Below are positions 20,803-61,950 of a stretch of DNA of 64,000 nt, in pieces; within the stretch, counting starts at the first letter, position 1, and every line of letters starts with the position of its first letter. Source of the stretch: Phaeocystidibacter marisrubri. Lineage in GTDB: Bacteria; Bacteroidota; Bacteroidia; Flavobacteriales; Schleiferiaceae. The translations under genes and the position numbers were made by a program. The stretch is from assembly GCF_008933165.1 (NCBI RefSeq), contig NZ_WBVQ01000001.1, positions 1,488,001 through 1,552,000 of the forward strand. The letters run 5' to 3'. The notes beneath the pieces were generated by a model. The model worked only from the letters and a program-made list of their open reading frames with translations. It searched no databases and had not been told where the DNA came from.

Positions 20803-21255
20803 ATGAAAAAGTTCATTCCTCTTTTGCTTCTTACCTCGTGTGGAATTTTTCGTTCTTCTCCGGATATCAACGAATTGTATCCGAGTCAGCCGATATCTGC
20901 GGAATTTTGTAATTGTATTCAGGAGGGGATTGGCCCCATTGATGTACATGCAGCGGGAGCGATTCACTTCTATGCCACGCATTTGGATACGGATCTGGAT
21001 ATTGACGAGTATTCAGATTCACTGCGAAAAATCCTTCCGCCAGTAGATTTTGCCAGGTACGAGGCGTCCATCGGGCACCTCACAGAGGTATTCGACGATG
21101 AAGAAGTGTTCGATTTTTGCGCGGAAAGCTTGATAGAAAACTACCCGGGCATTGACACCTTAGACGATGAGCGTATCATAAAAATATTGACAGACACCAC
21201 TGGCAATTCCCATTGCGGACTCACCCGTGATTTCCTTACCATCCTAGCCGATTAA
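20803..21255 (+). CDS. Lipoprotein of the CxC...C...C secreted family
   Basis: The 150-residue protein has a lipoprotein signal peptide (KKFIPLLLLTSC-G, Cys13). After a short linker one copy of the domain described for the gene at 19662 is seen: EFCNCIQEGI, a central FCAESL, and a final SHCGLTRDFLTIL. The shared order of a CxC pair, a single Cys and a last Cys followed by T-x-x-F suggests common ancestry although identity is low. It lies 292 bp after its relative and its stop overlaps the convergent argH stop region by four bases. Membrane-anchored location is inferred; function is unknown. Confidence 0.7.
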   Translation: MKKFIPLLLLTSCGIFRSSPDINELYPSQPISAEFCNCIQEGIGPIDVHAAGAIHFYATHLDTDLDIDEYSDSLRKILPPVDFARYEASIGHLTEVFDDEEVFDFCAESLIENYPGIDTLDDERIIKILTDTTGNSHCGLTRDFLTILAD

Positions 21256-22547
21256 GCATCGACATTGTCCCAAACGCGGTGGTATTTGGCGGCTATCTCT
21301 GTAGTGCAGAGGTTTCCAATACTACCTTCGTGGGTGTGCTTTACCGCTCGGTCAGGTTCAAAATTGCCACTTTGAATTTCCATGCCCAGTTCTTTGTATG
21401 CTTCGCGGAAGGTTGCTCCAGCAAGCACTCGCTTGTTCAACGCATCTACAGAGAAGAGGTAGTTGTATGTGCTGTCATGTACCACAGATTCTTTCACAAT
21501 GATATTCTCCAACATGAAATGCGTGATCATCAAGATCTCCCTACACTGCTCAATGCCTTTCATGAAGGGCTCCTTGAGCAACTGATAATCTCGGTGATAG
21601 CCGCTAGTCATGTTCGTGGTGAGAAGGGTTAAGCGCTGCGGCAAGGCTTGAATTTCATTGGCCGTGGCCCTCACCAATTCAAACACATCAGGATTCTGCT
21701 TGTGTGGCATGATGCTCGACCCTGTGGTCAATTCCTTTGGAAAGCCAATAAAATCGAAATTCTGACTCATGTAGAGACAAACATCATCCGCCAATTTACC
21801 CAGTGTTGATGCTAGGGAAGCGAGTGCAAAACTGACGCTTTTCTCAAGTTTACCCCGACTCATTTGAGCCGCAACCGAATTGAATCGCATGGTTTCAAAC
21901 CCCAATTCATCGGTCGTCATGGTGCGGTTGATGGGAAACGAAGATCCATAGCCCGCCGCCGATCCCAAGGGGTTTTGATTACTGACTTGATATGCAGCCT
22001 TCAAGAAATGCATGTCATCCACCAAGGATTCTGCATAGGCCCCAAACCAAAGTCCAAAACTCGAAGGCATGGCCACTTGGAGGTGGGTGTAGCCGGGGAG
22101 TAGAACATCCTTGTGCTTTTCGCTCAAAGATTGAAGCAGTTCAAACAAGGAATCCACATGATCTTTGATATGAATGATCTCTGCCTTGGCAAAAAGGTGA
22201 AGGTCCACCAGTACTTGATCGTTTCTCGATCTAGCGGTGTGAATCTTCTTGCCGGCATCACCTACCCGTTCGGTAAGGAGGTGTTCAATCTTACTGTGTA
22301 CATCTTCAAATTCGGCTTCAATTTCGAATTCTCCATTCTCGATTTCCCCCAGAATATTCTGCAATTCTCCAAGCAAATCACGCACTTCATCCGTGCTCAA
22401 AATCCCGATGGAATGTAGCATCCTCGCATGGGCCATATTGCCTAGTACATCGTATTCCGCAAGCTTCATATCTAGCTCTCTGTCGTTGCCAACCGTGAAC
22501 TTTTCAATGGCTTGATCTACCGAAAACCCTTTATCCCACAACTTCAT
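21252..22547 (-). CDS. argH: Argininosuccinate lyase
   Basis: The 431-residue protein belongs to the fumarase/aspartase superfamily. The signature GSSIMPHKQNPDVFELVRA carries the catalytic serine loop, and TARSRNDQV and GYTHLQ give the substrate-binding segments typical of ArgH. It splits argininosuccinate into arginine and fumarate, the last step of the pathway. It is the last gene of the arg operon and overlaps argE by four bases. It is slightly shorter than E. coli ArgH (457) but the core is complete. Confidence 0.95.
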   Translation of the reverse strand: MKLWDKGFSVDQAIEKFTVGNDRELDMKLAEYDVLGNMAHARMLHSIGILSTDEVRDLLGELQNILGEIENGEFEIEAEFEDVHSKIEHLLTERVGDAGKKIHTARSRNDQVLVDLHLFAKAEIIHIKDHVDSLFELLQSLSEKHKDVLLPGYTHLQVAMPSSFGLWFGAYAESLVDDMHFLKAAYQVSNQNPLGSAAGYGSSFPINRTMTTDELGFETMRFNSVAAQMSRGKLEKSVSFALASLASTLGKLADDVCLYMSQNFDFIGFPKELTTGSSIMPHKQNPDVFELVRATANEIQALPQRLTLLTTNMTSGYHRDYQLLKEPFMKGIEQCREILMITHFMLENIIVKESVVHDSTYNYLFSVDALNKRVLAGATFREAYKELGMEIQSGNFEPDRAVKHTHEGSIGNLCTTEIAAKYHRVWDNVDA

Positions 22548-23593
22548 AGCACTGTCTTTAATAAATCGATATAGATCTCAATCCCCTTCTCTAATTCATC
22601 TACATAAATGAACTCATCAGCAGTATGTGAACGCTCTGATTTGCCTGGACCTATTTTCAAAGTTGGGAAACGCATGTGTGCCTGATCAGACAAGGTAGGT
22701 GAACCATACGTCTTTCTCCCCAGTGCAATTCCTCCCAATACAATGGGATGATCCGCTGGAATAGACGAAGGTCGCATTCTAAACGAACGTGCTGTAAGCA
22801 CACTCTCCGTGTGTGCGTCAATAATGGCAAACACCTCTTCTAATTCGTATACATCGGGCACTCGAACATCCATCACAAAAGAGGCTTTGGCCGGTACCAA
22901 GTTGCTCTGCTTCCCAGCTTGAACTTGAGTAACCGACATCCTCACAGGTCCGGTAACTTCAGAGGCTTTTTCGAAAGTGAATTGCTCTACCCATGCGATA
23001 TCTTTCGCAATCTTGTAAATGGGATTAACCGTGTTGGTATGCGCGGCGTGCCCCGGAACTCCCATTGCTTCGGCATCTATAACAATGAGACCTTTTTCTG
23101 CGATGGCTAAGTTCATTTCAGTGGGCTCTCCCACCAAGCCAAAACTGATGGGTGGCATTTTCTCAAGCGCGTGAATGGCACCGTTTAAACTAGATGTTTC
23201 TTCCTCTCCTACGGCCAAATAAATGAGGTTGTGCGACATTCCCTCTCGTTCGTAAAAGTGAACGAAAGCATGAAACATTGCGATCAACGCCCCACCCGCG
23301 TCATTGCTTCCCAACCCGTATAATTTGCCGTTCTCCACTTCTGGAGTAAAAGGATCGCGGGTATATCCCGAATTCGGTTTTACCGTATCGTGATGAGAGT
23401 TGAGCAAGATGGAGGGCTTCGCCGCGTCGAAGTGTTTGTTGAAGGCCCAAACATTGTTAATGGAGCGTTCATACGGAATGCCTCTTACTTCAAATTGAGA
23501 AGCGAGATAATCCGCAGTTCTATCTTCCTCCCCAGAAAAAGAGGGAATTCGAATTAGATTTTCGAGCATTTCAAGTGCTGAGTGAGCCATCAT
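22544..23593 (-). CDS. argE: M20-family N-acyl-citrulline/ornithine deacylase
   Basis: The 349-residue metallohydrolase has the M20 zinc motifs HHDTVKP (first ligand region), GSNDAGGALIAM (bridging Asp), GEEETSSL (catalytic Glu pair), GEPTE and the late RSHTADEFIY ligand His. The dimerisation domain starts near GVPGHAAHTNTVNP. Because the operon contains an N-acyl-ornithine carbamoyltransferase instead of an ordinary OTCase, the likely substrate is N-acetyl- or N-succinyl-citrulline rather than acetylornithine. It is coupled to argB upstream (four-base overlap) and argH downstream. DapE-like activity is possible in this family but unlikely here. Confidence 0.88.
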   Translation of the reverse strand: MMAHSALEMLENLIRIPSFSGEEDRTADYLASQFEVRGIPYERSINNVWAFNKHFDAAKPSILLNSHHDTVKPNSGYTRDPFTPEVENGKLYGLGSNDAGGALIAMFHAFVHFYEREGMSHNLIYLAVGEEETSSLNGAIHALEKMPPISFGLVGEPTEMNLAIAEKGLIVIDAEAMGVPGHAAHTNTVNPIYKIAKDIAWVEQFTFEKASEVTGPVRMSVTQVQAGKQSNLVPAKASFVMDVRVPDVYELEEVFAIIDAHTESVLTARSFRMRPSSIPADHPIVLGGIALGRKTYGSPTLSDQAHMRFPTLKIGPGKSERSHTADEFIYVDELEKGIEIYIDLLKTVL

Positions 23594-24369
23594 AGTACAA
23601 GTTCTGTATGAATAGTCTGGATAGGATTAAACACCTCTGTCCCTCCTAAAATCACGGTTTGAACCCCGTTGTTTAGCGCTCTAAATCCGGTGTCTAATTT
23701 GGGAATCATCCCTTGGTAAATAGCGCCTTTGTCCTTTAGCTCTGTGTATTCCGTAATCGACAAAGTCTTCAGAACCGAAGACGGATCTAGAACGTCCCTT
23801 AAAACACCGGGCTTGTCAAAGCAGTATCTCAGTTCTACCTCATAAAAATCCGACAAAGCCATTGCGATTTCACTAGCTTGGGTATCTCCATTGGTGTTAT
23901 AGAGCTGCCCTTCTAAATCTGCGGTTATGGCTGAAAACACTGGAACAATACCGCTGGAAAGGGTACGAGCCAATCGCTCACCATCCACCTTTACTATGTC
24001 GCCCACAAAGCCAAAGTCGATAGGCTTCACCGAACGTTTCTCCGATTGAATGTACGCCCCATCAGCTCCATTTACGCCTTGAACCACTAGTCCTCTGGAA
24101 TGGAGTTTAGCGACAAGATCGGTGTTGATTTTTCCAGCATACACCATCTGTGCTACTTCGAGGGTTTTGGCACTCGTTATCCTTCTCCCTTCGTGCATTT
24201 GCTGTGGAATATTCAGAACTTCAGCCAGTTGCGTAGCTAGTATTCCCCCACCGTGCACAAGGACTTTCTGATGGGGAAGATTCGCAAAATAATCGAGTAC
24301 GGTGTTGAGCAAATCCGGATTGTCAATTACGTTTCCTCCAATCTTGCCGACAATCAATTTATCTTTCAT
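23590..24369 (-). CDS. argB: Acetylglutamate kinase (amino-acid kinase family)
   Basis: The 259-residue protein has the amino-acid kinase layout: VGKIGGNVID at the N-terminus, VLVHGGGILATQLAE, MHEGRRITSAKTLE, GVNGADG, and the late LDTGFRALNNGVQTVIL. ArgB phosphorylates N-acetylglutamate (or N-succinylglutamate in lineages with the succinylated route). The length fits the short, arginine-insensitive type without the N-terminal helix of feedback-inhibited hexamers, so feedback control may lie elsewhere, for example in the upstream leader. It overlaps argF' by 11 bases. Confidence 0.93.
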   Translation of the reverse strand: MKDKLIVGKIGGNVIDNPDLLNTVLDYFANLPHQKVLVHGGGILATQLAEVLNIPQQMHEGRRITSAKTLEVAQMVYAGKINTDLVAKLHSRGLVVQGVNGADGAYIQSEKRSVKPIDFGFVGDIVKVDGERLARTLSSGIVPVFSAITADLEGQLYNTNGDTQASEIAMALSDFYEVELRYCFDKPGVLRDVLDPSSVLKTLSITEYTELKDKGAIYQGMIPKLDTGFRALNNGVQTVILGGTEVFNPIQTIHTELVL

Positions 24370-25318
24370 GGCTCAACAGTTTATAGAGAACCGCTTGGGC
24401 AGCAAAGGTTCGGTTGTTCGCCTGTTCCAGAATGAGTGAGGTGGGTGCATCAATGACCTCATCGGTAGCAATCACATTTCTACGGATGGGAAGACAATGC
24501 ATGAACTTCGCATTGTGAGTGAGTTGCATTTTTGCTCCATCCAAAGTCCAATGGTCGTATTCCCTTGAAACCTGACCATAGTTCTCATACGCACTCCAGT
24601 TCTTTACGTACACAAAATCAGCACCTTGCAATGCCTCTTCCTGATTATGAGTCATTCTAGCTCCCCGCGTAAAGTCAGGGTGGAGCTCGTAACCGGGAGG
24701 ATGTGCGATGGTGAGATCATACCCTGCGGCAAGCGTCCATTGCGCAAATGAATTGGCAACAGCCTGTGGCAAAGCCTTAGGATGCGGAGCCCACGAAAGA
24801 ACCACCTTTGGATTCGATTTGGTGTTCTGTTCTTTTAACGTGAGCATGTCAGCTAGCGACTGCAAGGGATGTAGGGTGGCGCTTTCCAAACTCACCACCG
24901 GAACGCGGGCGTATTTCACGAAAGACGAAAGGAACTTCTCGGCATAGTCTTCTTCTCTGTCGGTGAGCGTGGCAAAAGTGCGTACGGCAATGATGTCGCA
25001 ATACTGCGAAATCACCGAAGCAGCTTCAGAAATGTGCTCTTGAGAGGAACCATTCATCACTGCTCCATCTTCCATTTCCAACTGCCATCCTTCACCGTTA
25101 AAGTTCATCACCATCACATTCATCCCCAAGTTGCTCGCCGCCTTTTGTGTACTCAAGCGGGTTCTCAAACTCGGATTGAAGAAGATGATACCCAGTGTTT
25201 TATTGGCACCTAAGTGCTGATGTGCATAAGGATTGACCTTGAACTTTTGAGCAAGGCTGATCCAATCTCCCACATCCTCTACATCCTTTACGGATAGAAA
25301 ATTCGCGATCGAGTCCAT
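24359..25318 (-). CDS. argF': N-acyl-L-ornithine carbamoyltransferase (acetyl or succinyl type)
   Basis: The 319-residue protein is a transcarbamylase with the carbamoyl-phosphate loop NPSLRTRLSTQ (about 48-58), HPLQSLADM and HCLPIRRN. Overall sequence, including WAPHPKALPQAVANSF and KNWSAYENYGQ, matches the Bacteroidota N-succinylornithine/N-acetylornithine carbamoyltransferases, not ordinary OTCase. At the residue that in characterised enzymes separates acetyl (Glu92 in Xanthomonas) from succinyl (Pro90 in Bacteroides) specificity, this protein has Gln93 (SSQEHISEA), so the acyl group cannot be named. It sits between argD and argB in the operon. Confidence 0.9.
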   Translation of the reverse strand: MDSIANFLSVKDVEDVGDWISLAQKFKVNPYAHQHLGANKTLGIIFFNPSLRTRLSTQKAASNLGMNVMVMNFNGEGWQLEMEDGAVMNGSSQEHISEAASVISQYCDIIAVRTFATLTDREEDYAEKFLSSFVKYARVPVVSLESATLHPLQSLADMLTLKEQNTKSNPKVVLSWAPHPKALPQAVANSFAQWTLAAGYDLTIAHPPGYELHPDFTRGARMTHNQEEALQGADFVYVKNWSAYENYGQVSREYDHWTLDGAKMQLTHNAKFMHCLPIRRNVIATDEVIDAPTSLILEQANNRTFAAQAVLYKLLSHER

Positions 25319-25319
25319 C

Positions 25320-26444
25320 CTAAATCAAAGATTTTAAGGCCGTACAAAATTCAATGACAGCAGCTCTATCAATGGATAGCGGAGGCAGGATACGCAACAA
25401 GTTGGGGTTGGCAGAATTTCCCGTAAACATAAAGTGCTCCGACAATAACTTCCCTCGAATCTCTTTGATTCCAGAAGGAAGTTCAACACCCAGCATCAAT
25501 CCCTTCCCCTTGATACGAACGTGATCAACATCTACAAACTCCGCACGGAATGTCATCTCCAAAGCGGAAGCATTGGCCATCAGTTGTTCACTTTCCAGCG
25601 TTTCTAAAACCGACAAAGCCGCGGCACAAGCCAATGGATTTCCTCCAAAGGTGGTCCCTAACATTCCATATTTCGGTGCAATAGTCTCACTGATGAGCAC
25701 CGCTCCAATCGGGAAACCGTTGCCCAATCCCTTAGCCATGGTAACCACATCAGCTTGAATACCCGCACTCTGATGAGCGAAGAATTTCCCTGTCCTACCA
25801 CAACCGCTTTGAATCTCATCTAGAATCAGTACTGCGTCGTACTCTGTACACCATGCGCGAAGTTGAACGAGAAAGGCATCGGTAGGCATGTCAAGTCCAC
25901 CTACACCTTGAATTCCTTCAACAATAACTCCGCATACATCTCCTTTTTCCAATTCTGTTTTCAGCGCATCGGAATCGTTCAATTCCAAAAAGGTGACCGG
26001 GAAGTGAGCGGCGTTTAGTGGAGCCGACAAATTCGGATTGTCAGTTACTGCTAACGCGGCAGAAGTTCGTCCGTGGAAACTTCCTTTAAAGGCGATAAAC
26101 CTCTCTTTCCCATTGTGAAAAGAGGCTACTTTTAATGCATTCTCATTCGCTTCAGCTCCGCTGTTACAGTAGAAAACACTGTGCTGCTGATAGCCACTCA
26201 ATTCGCCAAGTTTGTGTGCCAACGCCTCTTGAATAGGGAGATGAACCGAGTTGGAATAAAAGATCAATTGATCCATCTGCGACTTCAAGGCTTTCACATA
26301 CGATGGGTGCGAATGACCAATGGAAATAACTCCATGACCACCGTACAAATCCAGATAACGCTGACCGTTTTCATCGTAGAGATAGATACCAGAGCCCTTG
26401 GCAAGACGGATATCAAACCGTGGATAGACATCAAATAAATTCAT
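25320..26444 (-). CDS. argD: Acetylornithine (N-acylornithine) aminotransferase
   Basis: The 374-residue class III PLP aminotransferase contains FYCNSGAEANENALK, the DEIQSGCGRTGKFFAHQ segment, the PLP lysine in VTMAKGLGNGFPIG, and GTTFGGNPLACAAAL. It converts N-acylglutamate semialdehyde to N-acylornithine using glutamate. The start abuts argC (one-base overlap) and the stop lies one base before argF'. The length is slightly short for ArgD (about 395) but all catalytic segments are present. Confidence 0.94.
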   Translation of the reverse strand: MNLFDVYPRFDIRLAKGSGIYLYDENGQRYLDLYGGHGVISIGHSHPSYVKALKSQMDQLIFYSNSVHLPIQEALAHKLGELSGYQQHSVFYCNSGAEANENALKVASFHNGKERFIAFKGSFHGRTSAALAVTDNPNLSAPLNAAHFPVTFLELNDSDALKTELEKGDVCGVIVEGIQGVGGLDMPTDAFLVQLRAWCTEYDAVLILDEIQSGCGRTGKFFAHQSAGIQADVVTMAKGLGNGFPIGAVLISETIAPKYGMLGTTFGGNPLACAAALSVLETLESEQLMANASALEMTFRAEFVDVDHVRIKGKGLMLGVELPSGIKEIRGKLLSEHFMFTGNSANPNLLRILPPLSIDRAAVIEFCTALKSLI

Positions 26445-27418
26445 CAGAATACATTGGTTTTGTAGGTGAGGCCCGCGCTTTGATCGAGCCCAAAAATGAG
26501 ATTCATGTTCTCAACAGCTTGTCCTGCTGCTCCCTTGAGAAGGTTGTCAATTACTGAGGTGATCAGGAGCTTTCCATCTACCACTTCTACTTGAAGAAGG
26601 GCATAATTGGAGTTCACCACTTTCTTGAGGTGAACTGGCTCCGTTGTCACTTTTGTGAATGGACTATGGCTATAGAATTCCGTGTACCGTTCCAACCAAG
26701 TGGCGGCATCCTCTTCCGTATTCATATAGGCCGAAGCAAAAATCCCTCGGGTGAAATTCCCGCGCATAGGCAAGAAGTTCACACGGTGATTCCAATCGGT
26801 TTGGTACGACTTTAAAGTCTCGCCAATCTCCCCCAAGTGTTGGTGTTGGAAGGATTTGTATAGACTTACATTGTTCGCTCTGTTGCTAAAATGAGAGGTG
26901 CTAGAAAGCCCCGCTCCCGCACCAGTAGATCCTGTTAGCGCATGAACATGTACATCATCCATCAACAAACCAGCCGCAGCAATGGGTAACAGCGCCAACT
27001 GAATAGCCGTGGCAAAGCAGCCCGGATTGGCTATGCTCTTGGAAGACACGATTTCATCTGCCCTCGCATCCACTAAACCATAAGTAAATCTCCTGCCTTG
27101 AAACTGAGCATCTGCATTCAACCTGAAATCGTTTGACAAATCGATAATCACGGTGGATTGTGAGATGGGGTACTGCTCTAAAAAAGCCTTTGATTTTCCA
27201 TGTCCCAAGCACAAGAAAAGCACGTCTACATTGGGATTGAGTTCAGATGTGAACTTCAAATCACTGTAGAACAAATCTCCGTGTGCTTCTCCAACGGATT
27301 TTCCCGGTTGCGAGTGGCTGTACAGAAAATCAATTTTCATTTCTGGATGATGGAGTGCGATCCGAATCAGCTCGCCTGCCACATATCCCGTTGCTCCAAC
27401 TATACCAACACTAATCAT
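26444..27418 (-). CDS. argC: N-acetyl-gamma-glutamyl-phosphate reductase
   Basis: The 324-residue NADPH-dependent reductase has GIVGATGYVAGELIRIALHH as Rossmann start, the catalytic Cys in NPGCFATAIQLAL, GSTGAGAGLSSTSHFSNRA, and HRVNFLPMRGNFTRGIFA. It reduces N-acylglutamyl phosphate to the semialdehyde. The gene overlaps argG by eight bases and argD by one, consistent with translational coupling along the operon. Confidence 0.95.
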   Translation of the reverse strand: MISVGIVGATGYVAGELIRIALHHPEMKIDFLYSHSQPGKSVGEAHGDLFYSDLKFTSELNPNVDVLFLCLGHGKSKAFLEQYPISQSTVIIDLSNDFRLNADAQFQGRRFTYGLVDARADEIVSSKSIANPGCFATAIQLALLPIAAAGLLMDDVHVHALTGSTGAGAGLSSTSHFSNRANNVSLYKSFQHQHLGEIGETLKSYQTDWNHRVNFLPMRGNFTRGIFASAYMNTEEDAATWLERYTEFYSHSPFTKVTTEPVHLKKVVNSNYALLQVEVVDGKLLITSVIDNLLKGAAGQAVENMNLIFGLDQSAGLTYKTNVF

Positions 27419-28607
27419 CGCTCGTATTCACTTTTTGATGCAACAGCATCGGATTCGCCAATATCTTCGTGAAGCCTTTTACGTCTTCTCCACTCCATCC
27501 CGCATTCATTTCACCATACTGTCCCCATTCGGAATTCATCAAGTCATACTTCGACTCAATCCCTTCAATCACAAAACGATAGGGATGCAATTGGAGAAAG
27601 ACCGTTCCGGTTACATTCTTCTGGGTGTCTTTTAAGAACGTTTCGATGTTTCTCATCACGGGTTCAAAGAACATCGACTCGTGTAGAAACATGCCATACC
27701 AATTTGAAAGTTGCTCCTTCCAATGCATTTGCCACTTGGAGAGGGTGTGCTTTTCCAGAGCCTGATGGGCCTTGATTAGAGTGATGGAGGCCGCCGCTTC
27801 AAACCCCACTCTTCCCTTAATTCCGATAATGGTATCTCCCACATGAATGTCTCTGCCTATGGCATACGCCGAGGCAATCTCTTCAATTTTAAGAATCGCT
27901 TCTACTGGAGATAGATCTTCACCATTCACTCCCGACACCTCTCCCTTGGTAAAGGTGATAGACAGTTGAGATGGCGTTTCCGATTTCAACTGACTGGGAT
28001 AAGCGGACTCAGGAAGGGCTTGGTTCGACGTCAGTGTTTCCACTCCGCCAACACTCGTTCCCCAAATTCCCTTGTTAATGGAATACTTTGCCTTTTCCCA
28101 AGGAAGATCCACATTGAACTTTTTGAGGTAATCGATTTCATCTTGGCGCGAAATCTTCAAATCGCGGATTGGTGTGATGATCTTCAACTGTGGAGCAATC
28201 AATTGGAAAGCGAGATCGAAGCGAACTTGATCATTTCCTGCTCCTGTACTTCCATGTGCAATGGCATCGACTCCAATCTCTAATGCATACTTGGCCAAAG
28301 CAGTAGCTTGGTGGACTCTTTCCGCACTTACCGAAAGTGGATACGTACCGTTCTTCAAGATATTTCCGTAAATCAAGTAACGGATAATATCCTCATAAAA
28401 ATCCTCCGTTTGCTCTAGCGCAACGTGACTTGTTACGCCTAGATCGTGAGCCTTTTGCTCTATGCTCTTGAGTTCAAGCGGTGAAAAACCACCCGTGTTT
28501 ACAATGGCCGAGTGAACCTCCATGTTCAGCTCGTGCATGAGGTACTTCACACAGAAAGTAGTATCGAGACCCCCACTAAAGGCGAGTAGGACTTTATTTT
28601 TTGTCAT
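27411..28607 (-). CDS. argG: Argininosuccinate synthase
   Basis: With the ATG at 28607 (MTKNKVLLAFSGGLDTTF) the product is 398 residues, the family's usual size; an upstream start at 28658 would add 17 residues overlapping the GNAT gene and is less likely. The PP-loop LAFSGGLDTT, HGSTGAGNDQVRFD and SINKGIWGTSVGGVE are characteristic. The enzyme joins citrulline and aspartate with ATP. Its placement directly behind the acyltransferase gene rather than beside argH is the usual Bacteroidota order. The start overlaps the end of the GNAT gene by 14 bases. Confidence 0.95.
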   Translation of the reverse strand: MTKNKVLLAFSGGLDTTFCVKYLMHELNMEVHSAIVNTGGFSPLELKSIEQKAHDLGVTSHVALEQTEDFYEDIIRYLIYGNILKNGTYPLSVSAERVHQATALAKYALEIGVDAIAHGSTGAGNDQVRFDLAFQLIAPQLKIITPIRDLKISRQDEIDYLKKFNVDLPWEKAKYSINKGIWGTSVGGVETLTSNQALPESAYPSQLKSETPSQLSITFTKGEVSGVNGEDLSPVEAILKIEEIASAYAIGRDIHVGDTIIGIKGRVGFEAAASITLIKAHQALEKHTLSKWQMHWKEQLSNWYGMFLHESMFFEPVMRNIETFLKDTQKNVTGTVFLQLHPYRFVIEGIESKYDLMNSEWGQYGEMNAGWSGEDVKGFTKILANPMLLHQKVNTSDD

Positions 28608-29238
28608 CGTTGTAATTTTTGAGGATTCCAGATTTTGCAGCTCTTCTCGACTTGACAAAATCAGTGAATCGATTCCATGCTTTCGGCTTGTCCACTTCGG
28701 TGGGTTTCGTCTGACTTAAGTCGCAGACCATAGCCGTACACAAACACATGCTTCTATTCGTTCTTGTCAGGATATCTACGTTCACACAACTGTTGCAGCC
28801 CTTCCAGAAAACCTCGTCTTTGGTCAGTTCAGAGAACGTCACGGGCTTATATCCCAACTCCGAATTGATCTTCATCACGGGCAAACTCGTAGTAATTCCA
28901 AAAAGCTTGGCATTGGGAAACATCTTCTTAGACAAGTTGAACGTTTGTAGCTTAATTTGTCGGGCTAGTCCCGTTCCGCGGTAATCTGGGTGAACAATAA
29001 GTCCGGAGTTTGCCACATACTTCTGTTCATCCCAGCTCTCGATGTAACAAAAACCTACAACGGCCTCACCGTCAAGGGCAATTACACCCTTACCCTCTTC
29101 CATCTTTCTTCGGATGTAAGCAGGATCGCGCTTTGCTATTCCGGTACCTCGCACTTTTGCAGAGCTTTCCATCATTTCGCAGATGGTTTCTGCGAATGGA
29201 ATGTGCTCGTTGGATGCGACCATCACTTGTATCGACAT
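28594..29238 (-). CDS. GNAT acyltransferase, likely N-acylglutamate synthase, with Cys-rich C-terminal extension
   Basis: The 214-residue first structural gene of the arg operon. Residues 1-150 form a GNAT fold with the acyl-CoA loop NSGLIVHPDYRGTGLARQIK. After the fold comes a Cys-rich segment, WKGCNSCVNVDILTRTN, then SMCLCTAMVCD, and a basic tail. Operon position argues for the first committed step, acylation of glutamate, which is otherwise not encoded here (no argA or argJ). The Cys cluster could bind a metal or act as an arginine or redox sensor; this is inference. Start ATG at 29238; the Arg-rich leader ends 116 bases upstream. Confidence 0.8.
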   Translation of the reverse strand: MSIQVMVASNEHIPFAETICEMMESSAKVRGTGIAKRDPAYIRRKMEEGKGVIALDGEAVVGFCYIESWDEQKYVANSGLIVHPDYRGTGLARQIKLQTFNLSKKMFPNAKLFGITTSLPVMKINSELGYKPVTFSELTKDEVFWKGCNSCVNVDILTRTNRSMCLCTAMVCDLSQTKPTEVDKPKAWNRFTDFVKSRRAAKSGILKNYNDDKK

Positions 29239-29354
29239 GTAATAGAAATGAAATTATCCCGAAGTAGTACAGAAACTACCGAGGAACGAATACTTAAAAA
29301 ATCAATAGGAAAACTGGGGGCACGTCTGGTACGGAACCAGACAAAAAGGACGTA
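29238..29354 (-). promoter_or_regulatory. Leader segment between the Arg-rich peptide and the first arg gene
   Basis: Read on the minus strand, the leader stop is followed by CTTTTT, then the hairpin GTCTGGT-TCCGT-ACCAGAC (7-bp perfect stem at about 29323-29341), GTGCCCCCAG and TTTTCC. The segment ACGTC before the hairpin can pair alternatively with the 3' arm (ACCAGACGT), so mutually exclusive structures are possible. A strong G+C hairpin followed directly by a long U run is not seen, so termination may be Rho-dependent or control may act on translation. Confidence 0.5.
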
Positions 29355-29459
29355 TTACGCGCGGAGGCGTCGCTCGAATCGTCGCAATGAACGCATAACA
29401 GCCACTTCCGCCATGATCATGGCAGCTTGTAATGAAGTGTATGTTGCGTTGTTTTTCAT
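29355..29459 (-). CDS. Arginine-rich leader peptide of the arg operon (34 residues)
   Basis: ATG at 29459-29457 opens a 34-codon frame ending in TAA at 29357-29355. It starts MKNNATYTSLQAAMIM and ends with RSLRRFERRLRA: six of the last twelve residues are Arg, written with CGT, CGA and CGC codons. It lies 116 bases before the first gene of the arginine operon and directly behind a promoter-like sequence. Leader peptides rich in the end-product amino acid are the classical signature of ribosome-mediated attenuation (his, trp, leu operons). The function is inferred; the reading frame and codon cluster are directly visible. Confidence 0.75.
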   Translation of the reverse strand: MKNNATYTSLQAAMIMAEVAVMRSLRRFERRLRA

Positions 29460-29465
29460 TGAGTT

Positions 29466-29500
29466 GCAAATGTATGCTCGAATTTTTGAGAAATACAAAA
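29466..29500 (-). promoter_or_regulatory. Bacteroidota-type promoter of the arg operon
   Basis: On the minus strand TTTTG (29500-29496) is followed after 21 bases by TACATTTGC (29474-29466), matching the TTTG / TAnnTTTG consensus. The leader peptide ATG follows the -7 box after only six bases, so the leader would be translated from a nearly leaderless transcript. Confidence 0.6.
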
Positions 29501-29666
29501 TTTTCCGTGTGTAAAAATTCATATCGCTCCATCACCTCATCGTTCAAAAGGTGCTACAACTCACAACTTATGCAACCCTACGCGATACATCAACATCTGA
29601 AATAATAGACTTCAGACTCTAGAAAAGCAGAGATTATTGTAAACTTGAAAATCAAAAAACATTTCA

Positions 29667-30125
29667 ATGAAAAGACTCTCTGCCCTATTTCTCGTCCTCT
29701 TCTCCACGTTGAGTATCCACAGCCTCGCTCAAGCTAGTACTTATCAAGAAGAGATAGAAAACGCTTGTGAATGTATAGGAAACAGTATGGATGAATTCCT
29801 TCCACTACTAAATGGATGGGTTGCATACATGGAAGCAAATCCTGGGTTATCAACAGAAAAAGGAATGGAGGGGTACCTCTCTAGTCTTACTGAAGATGAA
29901 ATGATAGAAATCTTGAATCAAGTCGAAATCATGACGGAATACTTCAGCGATACAAACGAAGATATGATTGCCAAGTGCATGGAACAAAAAGGACAAGCAG
30001 ATATCGTAGATGATATGGTTGATACTGAAGAGGGGAGAAATAAAATACTAAAACACTTGAAAACCTTAGATTGTGAAGGTCTCACAGCCATCATGAAACT
30101 CGGAATGATGAGTGGAGAATTATAA
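29667..30125 (+). CDS. Secreted single-domain member of the CxC...C...LDC family
   Basis: The 152-residue protein has a signal peptide ending ...IHSLAQ and one domain: NACECIGNSMDEFLPLLNGW, a middle MIAKCMEQ, and the closing TLDCEGLTAIMKLGMM. The order CxC, single Cys, LDCE-x-T matches both halves of the protein encoded at 19662 and, more loosely, the lipoprotein at 20803. The rest is acidic and helical. A terminator shared with rimO follows directly. Periplasmic or extracellular location inferred; no known family. Confidence 0.75.
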   Translation: MKRLSALFLVLFSTLSIHSLAQASTYQEEIENACECIGNSMDEFLPLLNGWVAYMEANPGLSTEKGMEGYLSSLTEDEMIEILNQVEIMTEYFSDTNEDMIAKCMEQKGQADIVDDMVDTEEGRNKILKHLKTLDCEGLTAIMKLGMMSGEL

Positions 30126-61389: not shown

Positions 61390-61950
61390 TTAATAGAGTA
61401 TGCCAAACCTATATCTCTCCTTATAAACATTCGCAATTTGATAGCCCGGCACCTCATGCCCCATTAGTTGAGTTAATAGATCTGGATCCACACCTACTTG
61501 ACGACCATGAGAAGCAAAAGTATGCCTGTCCATCTTCGTGCCTATCTTAATTCCTGGAAGGAGGATGGCCATTTTCTTTTGAATGCGATTCCGTTGGGAT
61601 ACGTATAGTTTATTATCTGATGGTTGATGATGCCAGGCAAAGAGTAAATGCTTGTCCGCTCGTGCTGCATACTTTTGAATAAGCACCCTTGCAGGCTCGA
61701 TAATCGGTACTTCTACCTCAATTCTCCCACCCGATAGCTTTTGACGCAAAAAGCGAATAGAAGGCTTCTTTACGACCTTTGCTGGCAACTGTGTCAAATC
61801 CACAGAATCGATTCCCACGAGGTAATACTTTGCTTCGTCCACGGGAGAGCAAGATCGCTCGACTTTCGCAGCAATTGACAAGTGAACATAAATGCGTAAC
61901 AGGGGCCATTCCCGAACTCCCCACCCCATACTAGTGTAACTACACCCCAA
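61390..61950 (-). pseudogene. N-terminally truncated tyrosine recombinase
   Basis: About 186 codons resemble the catalytic half of a Bacteroidota tyrosine integrase: KYYLVGIDSVDLTQL, then RFLRQKLSGGRIEVEVPI, then TKMDRHTFASHGRQVGVDPD (Arg and His of the active site), QLMGHEVPGYQIANVYKERY (His and nucleophilic Tyr). The SAM-like core-binding domain and first catalytic Arg region are missing or altered, and full members have about 300-400 residues. The usual HxLR is changed to MDRH. The first 20 residues of the frame are not integrase-like, so the start is arbitrary. It lies 390 bases from tRNA-Arg and is probably the relic of the element that brought in the neighbouring genes. Confidence 0.7.

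Follow-up and report, generated by a model that had tools for sequence, protein, structure and literature searches.

Leader peptides as sensors of amino acid supply

The leader-peptide attenuators of the his, trp and leu operons are the familiar examples from Enterobacteria. The arginine locus described here resembles them in having a short ORF with a cluster of codons for the end product at the start of a biosynthetic transcript. It differs from them in that no intrinsic terminator is present and the Arg codons abut the stop codon, with a UNNGY-type hairpin following the stop in several families and Arg-rich frames sometimes standing in tandem.

The closest Arg-sensing leaders found, going by the portions of the reports available, are orf34 of Salmonella (PMC6386406) and rbfL of Staphylococcus aureus (PMC13009471). 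In orf34, the speF leader, ribosome pausing at consecutive Arg codons alters RNA folding with Rho-dependent termination involved, according to the part of the report available (PMC6386406). It is alike in relying on Arg-codon pausing in an upstream ORF, but its target is an ornithine decarboxylase, it has two consecutive Arg codons and it belongs to another phylum (PMC6386406). In rbfL, rare Arg codons likewise let a leader ORF respond to a lack of arginine, but it represses a biofilm regulator by occluding a ribosome binding site (PMC13009471).

Within Bacteroidota, the accessible sections on Flavobacterium psychrophilum report signs that amino-acid operons are preceded by leader-peptide attenuators, with conserved structured 5′ elements at pheA and hisG (PMC9723704). 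Leader-peptide attenuation is thus proposed there in general terms for flavobacterial amino-acid operons; the section consulted names no arginine leader, and where the main text mentions arginine, once, the subject is cyanophycin (PMC9723704). Short ORFs reminiscent of leader peptides appear in the available part of a study of B. thetaiotaomicron (PMC7366714). Term searches of two further articles, in the text available, gave no mention of Bacteroid-, Flavobact- or arginine (PMC2965389) and no mention of arginine (PMC4833913). Among the matches listed in the literature search, no title or abstract beginning described a Bacteroidota operon for arginine biosynthesis that is preceded by an Arg leader.

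The arginine operon and its leader

The window, the whole 64,000-nt stretch of Phaeocystidibacter marisrubri DNA that was analysed, carries on its minus strand an operon whose order was verified with Pfam and NCBIfam as GNAT, argG, argC, argD, an N-acetylornithine-type carbamoyltransferase (argF′), argB, ArgE/DapE and argH, eight genes, as in the operon read earlier from the bare sequence. The first gene encodes a GNAT acetyltransferase (28594-29238, minus strand) recognised by Pfam, with no NCBIfam model matching at E up to 0.001, and the seven genes from argG to argH occupy 21252-28658 (minus strand; Pfam and NCBIfam). The GNAT gene is absent from both other sampled genomes of the same genus and within the family was found only in the window genome and one other of the sampled genomes (G005), so that the nearest comparisons come from other genera. 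At the carA match of the same genome, no frame with at least three Arg was listed in the preceding 500 nt.

Upstream of GNAT lies a minus-strand ORF of 34 codons (29459-29355), with its ATG at 29459 and its stop at 29357-29355, encoding the peptide MKNNATYTSLQAAMIMAEVAVMRSLRRFERRLRA and ending in RSLRRFERRLRA directly before the stop. Arg makes up six of the last 12 residues (codons 23, 26, 27, 30, 31 and 33; 29361-29393, minus strand) and 116 nt separate the stop from the GNAT ATG at 29238. The sequence-only reading had given this frame, its six Arg and the 116-base distance, all of which were reproduced exactly in coordinates and translation, and its identification as an Arg leader peptide ORF is backed by Arg-rich frames at the equivalent site in relatives.

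The frame is open further 5′ as far as an alternative ATG at 29522, with the start at 29459 favoured by the position of the promoter. A −7 element, TACATTTG (TAnnTTTG; 29474-29467, minus strand), stands 7 nt 5′ of the leader ATG and a possible −33 element, TTTG (29499-29496, minus strand), was read 21 bases upstream of it, the two together matching what is taken to be the Bacteroidota promoter pattern with its −7 consensus TAnnTTTG. Of the 93 leader loci, 22 have TAnnTTTG 1-21 nt before an in-frame start, while seven altered versions of the pattern were found at 0-7 loci each; a gap of 7 nt, as in the window, is the most frequent (9/22). If the usual promoter spacing holds, the transcript would begin only a few bases before the leader ATG, making it probably near-leaderless. 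A scan for sigma70 promoters, which excludes Bacteroidota-type promoters, gave one match (29643-29616, same strand, further upstream) against 1.9 in shuffles, and an Rfam search of 28900-29900 returned no T-box or other cis-regulatory RNA at E up to 1.

Recurrence of Arg-rich frames upstream of GNAT

A frame with at least four Arg in ten residues was found in 7 of 94 upstream regions of other genes of the same genome, one having at least five Arg; these controls were drawn from 400 kb of the genome together with the window, the GNAT/arg operon being left out since the simple gene caller dropped GNAT owing to its overlap with an extended argG ORF. With similar frames at 7 of 94 sites a single sequence counts for little, and it is comparison that decides. 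The control scan also picked up an Arg-rich short frame, MCLGCLRGLRRLIGFRGFRRFRRFRCLRS, in an upstream region of the window at 61390-61950 (minus strand), which is probably a product of chance or of antisense coding.

The relatives’ upstream regions, which the sequence-only reading had named as the place to look for the Arg frame, answered in its favour. An Arg-rich short frame precedes 93 of 198 GNAT homologues, with Arg clusters near the stop, compared with 14.2 in dinucleotide shuffles, and no other residue gave a comparable excess, the next being Gly (10 vs 3.8) and Pro (10 vs 4.5). The rule was identical for all residues: the short frame had to end 30-320 nt before GNAT and to have, among its final 22 residues, a stretch of ten with at least four of the residue in question. 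The 198 upstream regions are those long enough (L017, with 97 nt, was omitted), 80 of them hand-picked for spread from longer, partly unlisted tables, and some of the loci come from near-identical species (L105, L110, L113 and L114 among them) or from families of common ancestry. At L018 the automatic picker settled on a spurious frame, and at loci with two frames it took the distal one; these cases were re-read.

By family, the leader frame was present in 27 of 33 loci of f3 (genus g21 excluded), 25/25 of f38, 5/6 of f22, 6/9 of f17 and 3/11 of f18, and in 12 of 50 named loci where 6.6 were expected. It was rare or missing in f6 (1/17), f24 (0/3), g21 (0/7) and f16 (0/4), though these carry GNAT and have no ArgR match. 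Family f3 is probably Flavobacteriaceae, since two loci of named genera, Mesonia (L025) and Dokdonia (L028), carry its motif; f38 appears to be Balneolaceae and f16 to comprise Blattabacterium-type endosymbionts. The f16 genomes (G062, G079, G208 and others; L151-L154) measure 0.3-0.6 Mb, with one of 1.3 Mb, and most have a GNAT frame of some 580-650 aa, probably through fusion to the next gene (argG), with no Arg leader in the four loci read. In g21 (L005, L006, L134-L137) there are related short frames, for example one ending in SRTNRPTTSPEVRML before the stop, with scattered Arg codons, that of L005 standing after a TACTTTTG box; these are possibly degenerate or different leaders. What appear to be two Arg-rich frames in tandem precede GNAT in 13 f3-type loci (L025, L070, L072, L075, L076, L082, L084, L089, L090, L091, L126, L128 and L132). 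The distal frame stops at −222 to −285 and the proximal one at −76 to −139, and an ATG is missing from some of them.

Peptide sequence and Arg codon choice

Leader peptides differ widely between families (for example MKGQRHISNTLSNLAPVRPFSRRRRP, MQKSLAHRIDRRSVRRIPRRR and one ending SRRRPYMPRA), varying in length and N-terminal sequence and having, as judged by eye, only Arg clusters in common. Over seven families 336 of the 385 Arg codons counted lie 1-11 codons before the stop, a figure to which the picker contributes by favouring frames with Arg near the end. Twenty-one related leader pairs show 137 synonymous and 281 nonsynonymous differences (pN/pS 0.68, p 1.5e-4), which serves as supporting evidence only because pairs and frames were picked by eye and by Arg content and pairs share loci; shared ancestry and overlapping pairs make this p-value, like those of the pairing, stem and codon tests, overstate independence. 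Arg columns were kept in 104 of 124 cases among these pairs, 17 of the kept ones with an altered codon.

In three families the leaders use Arg codons that are rare in the adjacent operon genes, CGG making up 66% of Arg codons in f38 (7% in the operon genes), CGC 61% in f3 (7%; 54% of leader Arg codons when the last five codons are removed) and AGG 69% in f15 (0%), a bias that points to tRNA supply. The trend is similar in the small sample from f2 (CGC 50% vs 3%), and no rare-codon bias was seen in the two f1 loci, one of which is the window, or in 12 named loci. The comparison covers loci for which 500 nt or more of sequence followed the leader, which in f3 means 19 of the 27 that have one, and the CGC excess in f3 may be driven in part by RNA structure.

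Structure of the leader RNA

The leader RNA of the window is more stable than its own shuffles (z −2.9), and over 93 loci fold stability near the leader stop is moderate (mean z −1.08). Minimum free energy folding predicts a hairpin over the Arg codons and stop (29349-29383, minus strand), followed by hairpin P2, GTCTGGT-TCCGT-ACCAGAC (29342-29324, minus strand), and by a third hairpin in the spacer (29256-29287, minus strand) that has no U-tract. P2 is the GTCTGGT/ACCAGAC hairpin noticed earlier, and it is real; an alternative pairing had been proposed alongside it, and no antiterminator partner was found. P2 has no U-tract and, rather than a terminator, is a UNNGY-pentaloop hairpin of a kind that recurs among these loci. 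Among nine near loci including the window, seven have the Arg-rich frame and six of these seven (not L020) the pentaloop hairpin, with loops UCCGU, UACGU and UACGC lying 15-19 bases from the stop, one stem mismatch being allowed. Outside f3 and f38, a UNNGY-loop hairpin occurs at 8 of 38 leader loci against 0.31 expected, the pattern having been defined after viewing the same loci.

In f3-type loci the exact string GGTGAGTCC follows the leader in 29 of 35, forming in those 29 the loop of a hairpin, P_b (GG-UGAGU-CC), whose invariance in the loop is a matter of selection as the loci were picked by that string. The stem varies, 17 distinct stems showing compensating changes such as GGAACT/GGTTCC, GGAAAT/ATTTCC, GGGATT/AATCCC and TTGAACT/AGTTCAG. 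On average 5.90 of 6 pairs are kept, compared with at most 5.34 in 5000 permutations with the stem register picked per locus and no more than 5.48 when the register was optimised afresh for each swap over 20,000 permutations. The loops of the 29 loci contain AGGTGA, which resembles an extended Shine-Dalgarno sequence; this is odd, as the group of these f3-type genomes is said to hide its anti-SD. Just 5′ of P_b a further hairpin, P_a, is found in 29/29 f3 loci vs 13.5 from shuffles, in the form GCCC-loop-GGGY in 25 of them and typically as CGCCC-GTAA-GGGTG over the last Arg codon and stop. P_a thus overlaps the end of the leader, and the hairpin over the Arg codons in the window is its possible counterpart.

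Family f38 has a different arrangement, a helix that overlaps the leader ORF by joining its 5′ part to the spacer (for example AGAATTGA/TCAATTCT, AGGATC/GATCCT and AACATTGTTCG/CGAACAATGTT), with within-locus pairing of 18.5 against 14.6 in swapped controls (p 2e-4). Such a helix was not found in f17, f18, f19 and f22 taken together (p 0.92), and in f3, where the same test yielded p 0.002, the stems are AT-rich and not consistently placed. Pairing between Arg codons and spacer was no better than in swapped controls in f38, in f3 or in f17/f18/f19/f22, and a plain MAFFT alignment of f38 did not serve for RNAalifold, its spacers being of unequal length. By these comparisons two families, f3 and f38, have covarying RNA at the leader or downstream of it.

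An RNA model of the f3 motif (R1), which acts mostly as a sequence model since its RNAalifold structure holds only five pairs, matched 69 of 120 f3 genomes at one site each, 60 of them new and nine from training. From these, 30 loci (six training) were retrieved and 29 contain a homologue of the window GNAT; in 26 of the 30 the loop is preceded by an Arg-rich frame and followed by the GNAT match 55-84 nt after the loop start. At the match without a GNAT homologue (L232) a different ORF, of 194 aa, stands at that site, and L243, L245 and L252 have no AGGTGAG in the stretch searched by script.

Absence of a terminator and the his leader of the same genome

In the window no U-tract hairpin lies between leader and GNAT, the terminator scan giving nothing above chance, and intrinsic terminators are likewise missing from leader loci at large (1/93 vs 0.2 expected) although the scan detected the positive control at hisG. 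Upstream of hisG in the same genome (L221, C2, 264999) a His leader, MSFSQNHHHHFHTCHQAR if its start is the ATG next to the −7 box, follows the same TACATTTG element, and after it stands a strong, perfect intrinsic terminator, AACCCGTCTGA-GCAA-TCAGACGGGTT-TTTTT, so that his is very probably under classical attenuation in this organism. From its sequence, the arg leader departs from this arrangement, and classical attenuation with GTCTGGT/ACCAGAC as terminator hairpin is not supported, given the missing U-tract and the lack of intrinsic terminators at these loci.

ArgR and the Arg leader in one slot

The DNA-binding domain of the Arg repressor (PF01316) was not found in the genome of the window, in a search positive for 9 of 14 control genomes; a model in which ArgR controls the operon requires an ArgR encoded by the genome and thus finds no support in this search. 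Across the order the domain was detected in 1 of 395 genomes, weakly and in a 312-aa frame. A sample of the phylum gave the ArgR domain in 118/392 genomes and GNAT in 174/392, with both in eight as read from two tables, two of these (G072 and G421) being doubtful.

Where ArgR is present it can stand at the very site of the leader. An argR gene lies directly upstream of GNAT in G605, G678 and G729, and among named, mostly Bacteroidales loci 17 of 20 tested upstream ORFs encode a two-domain ArgR, with 12-150 nt between the end of the ORF and the point where the GNAT match begins. These come from 30 loci inspected; at 22 an ORF lay no more than 250 nt upstream, and L058 and L064 were left out of the test; at L039, L042 and L050 the upstream genes encode an AIR carboxylase, an AAA protein and trigger factor. 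The slot before GNAT thus has two kinds of occupant, argR in one group and, in other groups, an Arg leader.

A model for arginine control and its alternatives

Comparison establishes the frame, its Arg specificity, its position, the conserved RNA and the tie to the operon. The recurrence, the Arg specificity, the argR slot and the conserved RNA strongly support the proposal of the sequence-only reading that an Arg leader controls the eight-gene operon, and Arg sensing by the leader is, at the level of sequence, well supported. The 5′ leader peptide gene of GNAT-arg operons would measure charged tRNA-Arg and set operon expression (probability roughly 0.8), the frame very probably being a built-in arginine gauge that works through the speed at which ribosomes read it. 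For stalling, the direction of the response and the output, we infer the following course. With arginine ample, the ribosome would pass the C-terminal Arg codons, terminate and leave, upon which the leader RNA would fold, with the hairpin over Arg and stop codons forming and then P2, and operon expression would be lowered. With arginine short, the ribosome would stall on the Arg codons near the stop, keeping the region unfolded, and expression would rise. The lack of an intrinsic terminator makes Rho-dependent termination (Rho is encoded in the genome), RNA stability or translation a likelier output than classical hairpin termination.

This last point separates the model from attenuation of the trp/his type, in which the leader RNA itself forms an intrinsic terminator. 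The layout of promoter, end-product-rich leader, hairpins and operon is alike, and hisG of the same organism appears to have that form, but terminators are missing both in the window and across the 93 loci, leaving this reading unlikely. The placing of the control residues at the end of the ORF beside the stop recalls TnaC and would suit an arrest peptide such as fungal AAP, TnaC or SpeFL, in which nascent peptide and free arginine together stall the ribosome. Arrest peptides require fixed residues, though, and by eye little beyond the Arg clusters is common to the families; the rare-codon bias of three families also favours tRNA supply, so that arrest by bound arginine seems quite improbable.

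The degree of amino-acid-level selection seen in the leader pairs would also fit a conserved small protein acting in trans and only incidentally rich in Arg, yet length and N-terminus vary by family and the f3 motif occurs once per genome with GNAT beside it at 29 of 30 loci, making a trans-acting product highly improbable. As to a functionless frame arising by chance or base composition, the similar frames at 7 of 94 control sites are what speaks for it; against it stand the excess over shuffled sequence in Arg alone, the covarying RNA after the leader and the out-of-sample motif matches before GNAT. Conservation contradicts this explanation, which is scarcely credible.

Beyond control of the operon by charged tRNA-Arg, a wider and more tentative picture, held at somewhat less than even odds, is of a terminator-independent arginine attenuator replacing ArgR in much of Bacteroidota. 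Its Arg leaders would be near-leaderless, apparently tandem in some Flavobacteriaceae-type genomes and built with rare Arg codons in several families, and a recurrent fixed-loop hairpin of the UGAGU/UACGU type may exert the output, with Rho, an RNase or an as yet undescribed bound factor as intermediary.

Significance

If true, control by the Arg leader would explain how arginine synthesis is regulated in ArgR-less bacteria of a major phylum, with one slot before one operon filled either by a repressor gene or by a leader peptide, regulators that are unrelated to each other. The loci would also provide a natural series for leader-peptide control without a terminator. Bacteroidota ribosomes make little use of Shine-Dalgarno pairing, and the series may therefore also inform how such control works with ribosomes of this kind.
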